This document shows positions 3,242-7,825 of a stretch of DNA of 7,825 nt, piece after piece. The notes under the pieces are model-generated. The model saw only the letters and a list, made by a program, of their open reading frames with translations. It was not told the origin of the DNA and did not search any database. Position numbers and translations under genes: made by a program. Numbering within the stretch: the first letter of the stretch is position 1; each line of letters begins with the position of its first letter. Source of the stretch: Candidatus Dormiibacterota bacterium. Lineage in GTDB: Bacteria; Chloroflexota; Dormibacteria; UBA8260; Bog-877. Location: contig PLTL01000103.1 in NCBI GenBank assembly GCA_003164475.1, positions 1,541 to 9,365 on the forward strand, written 5' to 3'.

Positions 3242-4039
3242 TCAGCCCACCAGGGCGACCACCCCTTCCGGTGGGAGTGGGCGGGCCAAGAGGAATCCCT
3301 GGCCCTGGTCGCACTCCGATGCGGTGAGGGCGTCGAGTTGGAGGCTGGTCTCGATCGCCTCGCCAACCACGGTGATCCCCAGCGCGTGCGCCATGGCGGT
3401 CACCGCGGCGACGGCCGCGTGGCCGCGCGGGCTTCCATCGATCTGCGCTACGACGCTCTGATCGATCTTCAAAATATCGACGTTCAGTCGTTGCAGGTGG
3501 GCAAGCGTCGAGTAGCCGGTTCCGAAGTTGTCCAGGGCGAGGCGGACGCCGAGTGCAGACAGCCCTGACAGGGTCTCCTCGACGTCGCCGAACTCTCCGA
3601 GGAACGCGGTCTCAGTGAGCTCCAGGCAGAGCCGCGCCGGTTCGATGCCATGCCGGCGGATCACCTCAGCCACACTCTCGGCGAAGCCGGGGATCGACAG
3701 CTCGTGCCCGGAAACGTTGACCGATATGGTGAAGGAGCTGGGCCAGCCGTCGCGCGCCCTCCACTCCGCGAGCTGACGGCAGGCCTCGTTGAGGACGAAC
3801 GAGTCGATCTGGTCGATCAGCCCATGCTCCTCGGCGAGGGGTATGAAATCGTGGGGCGGCACGACCCCCCGGTGGGGATGGCGCCAGCGCACCAGCGTCA
3901 GCCCGGTGGCCCGGACGACCAGGAACACCGCAGCGAGCACCACCACGAGGATCAGGAGGCGCCGAAGCCAGCGCCTTCGATAGCGCTTCGAGGCGAGAAG
4001 TCCAGCCCCCAGCAGAGCGACGCGAGTCCTAGGCCTCAT
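3242..4039 (-). CDS. Membrane-anchored, truncated and degenerate EAL-domain protein
   Basis: A 265-residue protein. Residues 1-27 are basic, residues ~28-42 form one membrane helix (LLILVVVLAAVFLVV), and an EAL domain fills residues 47-265. EAL domains hydrolyse cyclic di-GMP. Conserved residues present are RWRHP (51-55), FIPLAEE (65-71), N108 (SVNVS), E140 (LELTE), D170, K191 (LKID), E227, and Q247 in QGFLLARPLP. Two metal or catalytic positions are altered: the EAL motif reads LTL, losing its glutamate at L47, and DDFGTG reads DNFGTG (N171). The ~30-40 residues normally before the EAL motif are replaced by the membrane helix. It is therefore probably not an active phosphodiesterase. It may be a c-di-GMP sensor or a decaying fusion. 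The ATG overlaps the upstream gene's end by 11 bases, with no clear Shine-Dalgarno, suggesting translational coupling. Confidence 0.88.
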   Translation of the reverse strand: MRPRTRVALLGAGLLASKRYRRRWLRRLLILVVVLAAVFLVVRATGLTLVRWRHPHRGVVPPHDFIPLAEEHGLIDQIDSFVLNEACRQLAEWRARDGWPSSFTISVNVSGHELSIPGFAESVAEVIRRHGIEPARLCLELTETAFLGEFGDVEETLSGLSALGVRLALDNFGTGYSTLAHLQRLNVDILKIDQSVVAQIDGSPRGHAAVAAVTAMAHALGITVVGEAIETSLQLDALTASECDQGQGFLLARPLPPEGVVALVG

Positions 4040-4247
4040 GTTTTTCGGCCGCCGCCTTCGCTGCCACGTGCCTGCGCCCGTAGACGATGAGCGCTCCGAG
4101 GCCGCCGAAGATGAGCACCGCGACCAGGACCATCAGCACATGGGTCCCGGTCGAGCTACCCTGCCACGCCTCGAGCAGCAGGCCGGCGGCGAACAGCAGG
4201 ACCAGGATGGTGATGCAGCCGCCACACCCGGATCGGTTCCCTCCCAT
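4029..4247 (-). CDS. Small two-helix membrane protein, unrecognised
   Basis: A 72-residue protein I cannot assign to a named family. It begins MGGNRSGCGGC, with cysteines at 8 and 11. The first hydrophobic helix (ITILVLLFAAGLLL, about 12-25) is followed by a short polar loop (QGSSTGTH). The second helix (about 36-56, VLMVLVAVLIFGGLGALIVYG) precedes a charged tail rich in Ala/Lys/Glu. By the positive-inside rule the C-terminal tail (GRRHVAAK) is probably cytoplasmic. Its ATG shares one base with the TGA of the upstream zinc-finger gene (TGATG). Its own 3' end overlaps the EAL gene start, so the three genes form one coupled operon. The role is unknown; it could be a membrane partner of the EAL protein. 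Confidence 0.75.
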   Translation of the reverse strand: MGGNRSGCGGCITILVLLFAAGLLLEAWQGSSTGTHVLMVLVAVLIFGGLGALIVYGRRHVAAKAAAEKHEA

Positions 4248-4654
4248 CAGGCGGTCGCCTCTCGCCGGGCCTCATAAGCCCTTTGGCGACAACTTCTGGA
4301 GCAGTAGAGGCGCGCCCCGGACGATGGCGGCATAGGGCCGTCACAGTGTCGGCACTTGGCACCATCCGTCACAGTGATGCGGGCCAGACGCCTCAACTCC
4401 CGTTGCAGCCGGTGGAGGGCTGGCACGGCCTCATCGAGAAGCTCTAGGCAGTTCTGGCGCACCTCGGGGTTGACCAGCGAGAGGCCCGGCAGGTCATCGG
4501 CCAGCCGCCAGGCTATGTCGGCGATCCCCCTTGCCTGGCCGGATAGGATCTGCCAATTCCGCGCCCGCTGAGCCTCAGCCTCAGCCTCAGCCTTTTTCCT
4601 AGAGAGCTGCGCTGCCTCAAGTTCGGGTCGGCTGCGTCGCTTTGTAGCTGTCAC
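4247..4654 (-). CDS. Four-cysteine zinc-finger protein with N-terminal coiled coil
   Basis: A 135-residue protein starting at GTG. Residues 1-9 are basic (TATKRRSR). Residues ~10-35 are a charged helix with an EAEAEAE run, likely coiled coil. Residues ~36-92 are helical (including DLPGLSLVNPEVRQNCLELLDEAV). The C-terminus holds Cys101-x2-Cys104, then Cys118-x3-Cys122 in the context YCSRSCRQRAYEARR. This finger resembles the YCS..CRQRAY type seen in many small actinobacterial and mobile-element proteins; zinc binding and DNA contact are inferred. The start is supported by TATACT ending six bases before the GTG, predicting a leaderless mRNA. The start codon lies inside a perfect 13-base dyad, so a regulator bound there would block transcription initiation. 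It is the first gene of the operon with the small membrane protein and the EAL protein. Confidence 0.8.
   Translation of the reverse strand: MTATKRRSRPELEAAQLSRKKAEAEAEAQRARNWQILSGQARGIADIAWRLADDLPGLSLVNPEVRQNCLELLDEAVPALHRLQRELRRLARITVTDGAKCRHCDGPMPPSSGARLYCSRSCRQRAYEARREATA
4340..4350. repeat. Intragenic operator-like site (one mismatch)
   Basis: GTCACAGTGTC differs at one position from the perfect dyad GTCACAGTGAC found at the promoter. It lies in the codons for the first cysteine pair of the zinc-finger gene. Its centre (4345) is 28 bp from the next copy. Confidence 0.45.
4368..4378. repeat. Intragenic operator-like site (one mismatch)
   Basis: GTCACAGTGAT differs at the last base from GTCACAGTGAC. 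It is centred at 4373, 28 bp from the copy at 4345, the same spacing as the promoter pair. It lies in the codons for ITVTDG of the zinc-finger gene. Confidence 0.45.
4571..4592. repeat. Hexanucleotide tandem repeat (AGCCTC, about 3.7 copies)
   Basis: An in-frame 6-base tandem repeat inside the zinc-finger gene. On the coding strand it encodes the alternating Glu-Ala run (AEAEAEA) in the predicted coiled coil. Copy-number change would add or remove Glu-Ala pairs without shifting the frame. Confidence 0.7.
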
Positions 4655-4661
4655 AGTGACA
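4649..4661. promoter_or_regulatory. Operator-like perfect dyad over the start codon
   Basis: TGTCACAGTGACA is a perfect 13-base palindrome around a central base. It covers the predicted transcription start and GTG codon of the zinc-finger operon. With its partner centred 28 bp away, it brackets the TATACT box, as expected for a repressor site. Confidence 0.65.
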
Positions 4662-4666
4662 GTATA
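4661..4666 (-). promoter_or_regulatory. -10 element (TATACT) of the zinc-finger/EAL operon
   Basis: TATACT on the minus strand is six bases from the GTG start, predicting a leaderless transcript. The -35 region at 17-bp spacing (around 4684-4689) is covered by the second dyad and has no consensus TTGACA. Confidence 0.65.
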
Positions 4667-4676
4667 CCCCTCCCGT

Positions 4677-4689
4677 CGTCACTGTGACG
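4677..4689. promoter_or_regulatory. Operator-like perfect dyad over the -35 region
   Basis: CGTCACTGTGACG is a perfect 13-base palindrome around a central T. Its centre (4683) is 28 bp from the dyad at 4655, with the -10 box between them. It overlaps where the -35 element should be. Confidence 0.65.
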
Positions 4690-4866
4690 GGAGCAGCCCC
4701 TTGCGAGGCAGCTCCCGCCCCGGTGCCGGCTCGATCCCGCGAGCCTGAGGGTAAAGCCCGGACTCCGCCGGCCCAGCTGTCAGTGTCGCATGGCCCCAAT
4801 CCGCGCCACTGTGCGGGCCGTAGAGCCCCGCTAGGGGTAGCCGGCGATTCCCAGTACCCCGAGGTT

Positions 4867-5183: not shown

Positions 5184-5435
5184 TCAGTTCCACTTCGCGC
5201 CCTGGACGCGCCATCCGCGTCCAACGGCCTCCGCGATGGCGCTGGCGCGGTCGTTGTAGGCGACCGTTCCAGCGACACACTGTGTGCCATTCGGGTGGGT
5301 GATCCGGTACTGCCGGGGCAGCGTCCCAGGCGGATCCAGCTTCACCGCGACAATCTGGAAAGTCCCTATCACCCAGGGCCGGGTTGTATCGGTGCGGCGC
5401 TGCTTCATCTGCTCCTCGCCTGAGTCCCGATTCAT
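5184..5435 (-). CDS. Small hypothetical protein coupled to the recombinase stump
   Basis: An 83-residue protein with no family I can name. After a polar N-terminus (MNRDSGEEQMKQRRTD) it has alternating strands (WVIGTFQIVAVKLD, RQYRITHPNGTQCVAGTVAYND), then a helix (RASAIAEAVGRGW) and a basic end. The first ATG overlaps the recombinase stop codon (ATGA), suggesting translational coupling. A 30-base duplication has copied the GAGGAG ribosome site plus start region, so a second in-frame ATG at 5408 also has a GAGGAG, but only three bases away. The first start (six-base spacing) is preferred. A position beside an integrase can suggest an excisionase, but no helix-turn-helix is evident and I do not assign that role. 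Confidence 0.6.
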   Translation of the reverse strand: MNRDSGEEQMKQRRTDTTRPWVIGTFQIVAVKLDPPGTLPRQYRITHPNGTQCVAGTVAYNDRASAIAEAVGRGWRVQGAKWN

Positions 5436-5458
5436 GAGCTGCTCCTCGCCTGAGTCCC
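5409..5458. repeat. 20-bp direct repeat, 30-bp period, spanning two ribosome-site/start regions
   Basis: Two perfect 20-base copies (5409-5428 and 5439-5458) are offset by 30 bases, exactly ten codons. On the minus strand each encodes DSGEEQ in the frame of the 83-residue protein and contains GAGGAG followed by an ATG. The upstream copy is also read as the last residues of the recombinase stump. Confidence 0.9.
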
Positions 5459-5653
5459 AAGACGTGAGAAGTCCGGGAGCCCAGCGATCGCCTGGACTTT
5501 GCGCTCCCGGAGGACCCCGGTGTAGATCCGGGCCGTGATGCCGACATTCTGATGGCCGAGGAGCTTACTGATGGTGTTCAGCTCGGCTCCTCCAGCGTCG
5601 AGCAGACCGGCGAACACGTGGCGAAGGTGATGCCAGTGCATCGGGTATCCGCT
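5432..5653 (-). pseudogene. Tyrosine recombinase (phage-type integrase), C-terminal stump
   Basis: About 70 residues remain of an enzyme that is normally 350-400 residues. The stump has the second half of the catalytic centre: HLRH in WHHLRHVFAGLL (the His-x-x-Arg box), LLGHQNVGITARIY with the second histidine, and the tyrosine nucleophile in RIYTGV. The N-terminal arm-binding and core domains and the first catalytic arginine are missing. A TAG stops the frame four codons before the ATG at 5641, and upstream bases show no integrase similarity in any frame I read. The fragment cannot recombine DNA by itself. It lies on the 3' side of tRNA-Leu with the tRNA's orientation, as expected for an element inserted at the tRNA 3' end. 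Its stop overlaps the next gene's ATG. Confidence 0.85.
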
Positions 5654-5932: not shown

Positions 5933-6018
5933 TGGTGCCAGCAGTGGGAGTCGAACCCACACGAGCTTGCGCTCAACGGTTTTTGAGACCGCCGCGTCTG
6001 CCATTCCGCCATGCTGGC
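5933..6018 (-). tRNA. tRNA-Leu (anticodon CAA), CCA encoded
   Basis: An 86-base class II tRNA. The acceptor GCCAGCA pairs fully with TGCTGGC, followed by discriminator A and an encoded CCA (5935-5933). The D arm is GCG/CGC. The anticodon stem GCGGT/ACCGT closes a seven-base loop CTCAAAA, with anticodon CAA at 5985-5983 (reads UUG). A long variable arm (GAGC-GCAA-GCTC) confirms the leucine class. The T arm is GTGGG-TTCGACT-CCCAC. It begins 12 bases after the stop of the BFN nuclease gene on the same strand, so the two may share a transcript. No clear terminator follows, only TTTTT at 5926-5930. Confidence 0.97.
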
Positions 6019-7380: not shown

Positions 7381-7825
7381 CTACAGTTGGACGGGCGGCG
7401 CGGTTGAGGCCCGAATCACCAGCTCCGCCGGCAGGACCCTGGAGGCGACCGGTGCCCTGTGGTCGGAGATCCTGTCCAGGATCAGCTCTGCAGCGGCAGT
7501 GCCAACCTCGTAGTGCGGTATGCGGACCGATGAGAGTGGCGGCCGAAGCTGGTCGATGAAGGGCATGTCGTTGAAGCCGACCACCGACACCTGATCGGGA
7601 CAGCGGAGACCCGCATCTTCCAAGGCCAGGTAGCATCCCAACGCCAGCAGGTCGTTGCCGGCCACCACCGCGGTGAAGCTGCGCCCGCTCTGGAGCAGCG
7701 CTGCCATGCAGGTGCGACCCGCATTTCTGGTGAACGTCTCGGCGACGACGATGAGGTCAGGATCCGGGTCCAGCCCGGCGCGGCGCAAGCCCTCTTCAAA
7801 TCCCCGAAGGCGTCCCACTCCGGTA
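7381..7825 (-). CDS. LacI/GalR-family regulator, ligand-binding C-terminal part (5' end outside the window)
   Basis: The last 148 or so residues of a sugar-type transcriptional repressor. The frame is open through the right edge, so the GTG at 7818 is internal (TGVGRLRGFEEGL matches the usual TG..R..GF.EAL of the family). The periplasmic-binding-like sensor fold is clear: FTAVVAGNDLLALGCYLALEDAGLRCPDQVSVVGFNDMPF, then LRPPLSSVRIPHYEVGTAAAELILDRI. These correspond to the family's NDxxAxG, DVSVVGFDD and PPLTTVR-G-A motifs. The helix-turn-helix and hinge lie beyond 7825, and the ligand cannot be told. A hairpin follows the TAG stop. The methyltransferase remnant points toward it from the other strand, with no visible functional link. 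Confidence 0.94.
   Translation of the reverse strand, partial: TGVGRLRGFEEGLRRAGLDPDPDLIVVAETFTRNAGRTCMAALLQSGRSFTAVVAGNDLLALGCYLALEDAGLRCPDQVSVVGFNDMPFIDQLRPPLSSVRIPHYEVGTAAAELILDRISDHRAPVASRVLPAELVIRASTAPPVQL

Follow-up and report, generated by a model that had tools for sequence, protein, structure and literature searches.

The closest described system is that of SpdA2, a zinc-finger protein of the Streptomyces plasmid pIJ101 that shifts the sps palindrome CGTCAC-GTGACG in gel shift experiments (PMC4170104). In the plasmids pSVH1 and pEN2701 the palindrome carries a central T/A insertion, and a pSVH1 fragment of this form was also shifted by SpdA2. One sps overlaps the start codon of spdA in pSVH1 and three lie upstream of spdA in pEN2701. 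Most SpdA members encode sps as SRDD/E repeats, a motif that those of pSVH1 and pEN2701 are without. When spdA2 or sps was lost, three sporulation cycles led to 16-21% plasmid loss, with transfer unchanged (PMC4170104). SpdA homologues were stated to be restricted to Streptomyces plasmids and their molecular function was left open; the BLAST search of Thoma et al. 2014 also met putative actinomycete regulators with the same DNA-binding region (PMC4170104). The accessible part of that paper reports the stability phenotype and describes no test of repression. A search of the open-access literature gave no further paper on SpdA2/sps among the matches listed, and nothing relevant on leaderless start-codon operators among the best 10 of 18 matches.

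We analysed 7,825 nucleotides of a Candidatus Dormiibacterota contig (the window), in which a sequence-only reading had noted four GTCACWGTGAC dyads forming two pairs with the same 28-bp spacing. Sites and spacing were both borne out. Dyads A (4678-4688, GTCACTGTGAC) and B (4650-4660, GTCACAGTGAC) have no mismatches, dyads C (4368-4378, GTCACAGTGAT) and D (4340-4350, GTCACAGTGTC) one each. The centres at 4655/4683 and 4345/4373 are 28 bp apart within each pair, and the pairs are separated by 310 bp when corresponding dyads are compared and by 282 bp between the nearest two. When fitted to the 13-mer CGTCAC-N-GTGACG, dyad A is perfect (CGTCACWGTGACG), C and D have one mismatch each and B has two, with symmetrical flanks. 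Allowing two mismatches to GTCACWGTGAC yields two more matches elsewhere in the window (3609 and 7231). Among 2000 first-order Markov simulations of the window, dyads with at most one mismatch occurred at a mean of 0.119 and a maximum of 3; four were reached in 0/2000, and two perfect copies were also found in 0/2000. The half-site GTCAC is common to pIJ101 and the window, and the central T/A insertion is shared with the palindromes of pSVH1 and pEN2701, two plasmids compared here by the paper's description (PMC4170104). Judged by sequence, we regard the window dyads as the spacer-1 form of sps.

Read along the minus strand, dyad A is followed after 11 nt by TATACT and then by dyad B. Dyad A overlaps the -35 region of the promoter, TATACT (4661-4666) forms a -10 box 6 nt ahead of a GTG start codon (4654-4652), and this codon is held within dyad B. 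The window thus carries a TANNNT box followed by an sps with the in-frame GTG start, which is the signature of the putative leaderless start-codon operators described below. The gene that starts here (4247-4654, minus strand) encodes a 135-aa zinc-ribbon protein with an SpdA-like core (C101, C104, C118 and C122 together with SCRQRAYEARRE). Its length and its four conserved cysteines agree with those of SpdA proteins, which have 117-163 aa and a zinc-finger DNA-binding region, and residues 114-132 are identical to SpdA2 at 15 of 19 positions. Searches of Pfam, NCBIfam and PHROGs did not assign the protein to any family with confidence (best PHROG E 0.0015, function unknown). The predicted structure (mean pLDDT 86.7) is helical in its N-terminal part, and a fold search of the PDB with it returned nothing usable (best E 0.52).

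Two more minus-strand genes follow, each overlapping the one before it end-to-start (4654-4247, 4247-4029 and 4039-3242). The first (4029-4247), whose start overlaps the zinc-ribbon stop by 1 nt, encodes a 72-aa membrane peptide that is hydrophobic by eye and has no confident Pfam family. The second (3242-4039) overlaps the membrane-peptide gene and encodes a membrane-anchored EAL-domain protein. Its match to Pfam EAL begins only at profile position 33, the EAL motif is missing, and the protein reads DNFGTGYS. The usual form of this motif in EAL proteins is DDFGTGYS. Given these degenerate motifs, the protein may be non-catalytic.

SpdA2 of pIJ101 and the window protein are both small zinc-finger proteins with the RSCRQRAYEARR core, and both genes have sps inside them; the pIJ101 record shows the same core and two intragenic sps 33 bp apart. 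The association of sps with the gene is also seen in the window, where dyad A equals the full 13-mer and dyad B lies over the start codon. Several features differ, however. The zinc ribbon is C-terminal in the window protein (residues 101-130 of 135), whereas it is N-terminal in SpdA; a possible domain permutation, with the helical part moved from behind the ribbon to before it, reached a probability of 3.7 and P 0.011 in hhalign and was not adopted. The window, unlike pIJ101, has dyads not only inside the gene but also at its promoter and start codon. The copies inside the gene coincide with TVTDG and CRHCDG, in two different frames, and not with SRDD/E repeats (TVTDG and HCDG versus SRDE in pIJ101), and only the window has the membrane-peptide and EAL-like genes downstream. 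In placing a palindrome over the start codon the window resembles pSVH1, whose promoter layout is not described in the accessible part of the paper (PMC4170104).

A search of 5.8 billion proteins returned 9 sequences including the window's own, and the stretches conserved among them include VTVTDG, CRHCDG and YCSRSCRQRAYEAR. Profile scans gave 23 loci in genome contigs (L002-L024) and one in viral contigs (L025). A palindrome with an in-frame GTG precedes the ribbon in 9/24 of these (L003, L005, L008, L011, L012, L013, L017, L018 and L019), with one mismatch in L012 and L013 and with identical sequence there in L017 and L019. In L010 and L007 the palindrome precedes the ribbon and has no in-frame GTG. 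Copies that follow the ribbon, two or three per locus, are found in Streptomyces, at a spacing of 24 bp in L002 and of 33 bp in L006, L009 and L020. No copy with at most one mismatch was found within 300 bp at 9/24 loci (L004, L014, L015, L016 and L021-L025; the sequence of L021 ends 50 bp past the match). The locus most like the window is L003, from an Acidimicrobiaceae MAG, which encodes the long form and has the perfect 11-mer twice, once covering its GTG start (5782) and once at VTVTRD (6064); the two are 282 bp apart, as are B and C. Conservation of the dyads at homologous loci, proposed earlier as a check, is therefore seen in L003 both at the start and inside the gene. L005 has a 21-bp palindrome at its GTG start, which is the sole copy of the 11-mer in the genome, and a genome-wide search found the 11-mer to be rare, with 15 copies in total in 15 genomes and at least one in 8/15. 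Neither of the two outcomes named beforehand as refuting, absence of the dyads from orthologous operons and many scattered copies of the 11-mer, was thus encountered. In phage and plasmid records, positions 4200-4800 had no relatives at the DNA level; protein-level relatives were found on 4 Streptomyces plasmids and in no phage. A stretch with 100% identity to pIJ101 SpdA2 over 107 residues (H5, NZ_CP061946.1, 2493-2813) is present in a 5.2-kb plasmid whose record bears the name Pseudomonas sp. SK2; it is possibly a vector.

The identical spacing of the two pairs had been taken to indicate a cooperatively binding regulator, which we do not uphold: 28 bp corresponds to ~2.7 helical turns, and L003 and L005 have a single dyad at the start. 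A promoter pair with 28-bp spacing was found in none of the zinc-ribbon relatives. The spacing of C and D follows from the TVTDG-to-CRHCDG distance, which is fixed in the protein. Same-face cooperativity was also considered for the 28-bp spacing and rejected, given the ~2.7 turns and the viral-contig pairs described below, among which only those of one contig (L001) are 28 bp apart.

We then surveyed 198 genomes of the class of G001, the Acidimicrobiaceae genome that contains L003, with a core profile (A2, E <= 1e-5) whose search alignment was seeded by three of the 31 loci counted below (G001, G011 and G204). Counts were taken from the HMM scan, and all 60 core places were examined. The profile matched 60 cores in 57 genomes, corresponding to 52 non-RQW and 8 RQW loci. 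Within -250 to +450 of the core, sps (at most one mismatch) was present at 35/52 non-RQW and 0/8 RQW loci and thus absent from 17/52 of the former; the background elsewhere in the same loci was 14 matches in 120,263 bp, some true sites included, from which 4.9 would be expected for the 60. Within -100 to +40 of the core, 31/52 non-RQW loci had sps, 30 of them at the start and one internal (G001), compared with at most 1/52 (mean 0.05) for 119 permuted half-sites. The spacer is 0 in 11 of the 31 and 1 in the other 20. The palindrome begins 13-94 nt (mostly 13-28 nt) before the core match, with the start codon within it. A TANNNT box ends 6-9 nt, most often 7, before the GTG inside the palindrome in 29/31, the arrangement also found in the window; as a control, TANNNT occurs 4-9 nt before GTGAC at 41/572 places in the same loci, sps matches included. 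When 395 genomes of the class were searched, 7/7 additional loci had sps at the start, although the profile used for this (A1) favours VTVT. A phylum-wide draw of 296 genomes gave sps in 0/8 new loci, whose cores are AYEQR or AYEHR.

These data bear on two of the original proposals. The layout over the -35 region, the -10 box and the leaderless start had been compared with that of a repressor, and relatives in one actinobacterial class with the same palindrome in the same place support this view. The zinc-finger protein had been named as a possible binder; it gains likelihood from the same positional evidence and from SpdA2, which shares the zinc-ribbon core and binds the palindrome (PMC4170104). 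Presence of the palindrome in a genome says less than its position. CGTCACGTGACG occurs in 56/198 genomes and GTCACWGTGAC in 77/198, and CGTCACGTGACG is found in 21/57 genomes with a core match versus 35/141 without one. This tie to the gene is weak at the genome level, and the case therefore rests on position.

The 35 genomes that have CGTCACGTGACG and no core match could point to a different regulator of the dyads, for example a phage-type ribbon-helix-helix or helix-turn-helix repressor of the former mobile element or the LacI-type regulator encoded at 7381-7824, whose sensor domain lies 2.7 kb away and is cut by the window's end. Viral contigs favour such a factor. In L001, two small genes resembling Arc-type ribbon-helix-helix genes (family by eye) enclose three perfect dyads, of which the first two are 28 bp apart, and 43 viral contigs with dyad pairs showed no zinc-ribbon match in the stretches fetched. 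For spacer-0 pairs, a zinc-ribbon match was present in one of 12 contigs (L209). Dyad pairs that occur without a zinc-ribbon match mean that the motif alone does not name the binder. The viral pairs contain the same GTCACWGTGAC dyad as the window but are mostly spaced differently: the gaps in the 43 contigs are 8-37 bp, and 51/62 of the intervals under 60 bp are 22-23, 33 or 42-45 bp. No ribbon-helix-helix or helix-turn-helix gene was detected among the 9 window frames scanned (6 of them with further profile sets), and the palindrome stands at the own start of many zinc-ribbon genes. We therefore consider control by a different regulator unlikely. Two AT-rich viral contigs have larger arrays, with seven (L236, 2152-2452) and five (L258, 2567-2783) GTCACWGTGAC, several of them 42 bp apart.

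The intragenic copies call for a separate judgement. Dyad C covers the codons I-T-V-T of TVTDG and contains an in-frame GTG (4372-4370, codon 95), and dyad D covers the codons of CRHCDG, the first zinc knuckle. The sequence-only reading had allowed that coding constraint might make both coincidental. In synonymous resampling, both copies arose at a frequency of 0.006 with window codon usage, 0.047 with the gene's own usage and 0.082 with codon permutation, and at least one arose in 18-50% of trials; taken alone, the intragenic pair is thus only weakly beyond chance. With 0.6% to 8% of trials giving both, C and D might be functionless coincidences of the conserved TVTDG and CRHCDG codons, which is compatible with A and B acting as operators. 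Dyads elsewhere in the 15 genomes searched for the 11-mer are often inside genes, several of them as V-T-V-T codons, and perfect dyads often encode V-T-V-T in other reading frames. Against this, the codons of L003 that correspond to C hold a perfect dyad, and C itself lies at the place where short relatives have their start operator. We give coincidence a little less than an even chance. Dyad D has no positional support of this kind. In the window, dyad C retains the in-frame GTG and has no -10 box, and the perfect dyad of L003 at the same place likewise has none. Dyad C is probably a relict start operator of the short form. The presence of dyad C and of the internal L003 dyad at the short-form start suggests to us that the long form is the product of an upstream extension.

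Additional sps copies are also found near the other end of the gene. In 9/60 loci an sps begins 3-40 nt downstream of the first stop-codon base, and among the 31 loci a second sps lies 367-410 bp downstream in 5 and 200-450 bp upstream in 0 (permuted half-sites: mean 0.08, maximum 3). A second sps in 5/31 relatives makes bridging possible, and operators at both gene ends, those of the window included, may be bridged. More distant copies were seen in several genomes. In L161 (9157) and L162 (3774) a second CGTCACGTGACG is located ~3.3 kb from the zinc-ribbon gene, between divergent genes that by eye are enoyl-CoA hydratase-like and HAD-type hydrolase-like, and could be a regulon site. In L163 (5251), L164 (7579) and L165 (1996) a second CGTCACGTGACG is 2.1-2.3 kb from the copy at the zinc-ribbon start, and in L163 it precedes a reading frame that by eye is thioredoxin-like. 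Two more CGTCACTGTGACG sites are found in G207 (L160, 13641 and 15418), at distances of 7.6 and 9.4 kb from the copy at the zinc-ribbon start.

The surroundings of the locus suggest a decayed integrated element. A 69-aa C-terminal fragment of a tyrosine integrase (5432-5641, minus strand) is adjoined by a tRNA-Leu(CAA) gene (5933-6018, minus strand); a search for an attachment-site copy of the tRNA-Leu end gave chance-level matches only. Besides the tRNA-Leu gene, the flanks hold a YGGT gene, a BFN-domain gene and the end of a gene with HHH_6 and OB domains that by eye is dnaE-like, and these flanking genes suggest that the SpdA-like locus is integrated or chromosomal. The integrase remnant next to tRNA-Leu would also suit sites that help to maintain or position a plasmid or element, as has been proposed for SpdA2/sps, with any effect on transcription as a by-product; loss of spdA2 or sps does lower the stability of pIJ101 (PMC4170104). 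However, the sites of the class survey abut the -10 box and hold the start codon, which fits transcription control, and L003 and L005 lie among genes that are chromosomal by eye, with no tRNA gene in their 12-kb stretches. A maintenance role as the primary function seems decidedly improbable.

We consider it likely that the SpdA-like zinc-ribbon protein is a leaderless autorepressor of a three-gene unit and that dyad C is a former start operator. What the analysis shows directly is the four sites, how rarely they arise by chance and the return of one promoter-operator-start arrangement in relatives. Which protein binds, that it represses, that the mRNA is leaderless, which genes are controlled and how the long form evolved are all inferred from the fixed position of the palindrome at the gene's own start across genomes, combined with the published binding of SpdA2. 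The protein would bind dyad B, over the transcription start and the GTG of its own leaderless mRNA, and also dyad A, over the -35 region, so that RNA polymerase would be blocked. The unit repressed would comprise the overlapping zinc-ribbon, membrane-peptide and EAL-like genes. An upstream extension of the gene would have taken the former start operator, dyad C, into the reading frame, where it is perhaps still bound.

The T/A form of the palindrome, its binding by SpdA2 and the overlap with the pSVH1 start codon were already known (PMC4170104); what is new is the sps just before the zinc ribbon in genomes of other actinobacteria. We tentatively suggest, as a possibility only, that SpdA/sps is one branch of a mostly chromosomal family of leaderless autorepressors, in which a 12-13 bp palindrome would be operator, initiator and start codon in one. 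In the branch of the window, the old operator would have become the VTVTDG motif with the DNA site kept in use, and the operators at both ends may bridge. A group outside the Streptomyces plasmids whose site is fixed on promoter and start offers autorepression as a testable function. TANNNT, sps and GTG provide a simple signature for finding further members, and the locus may be a case of a DNA site turned protein motif.
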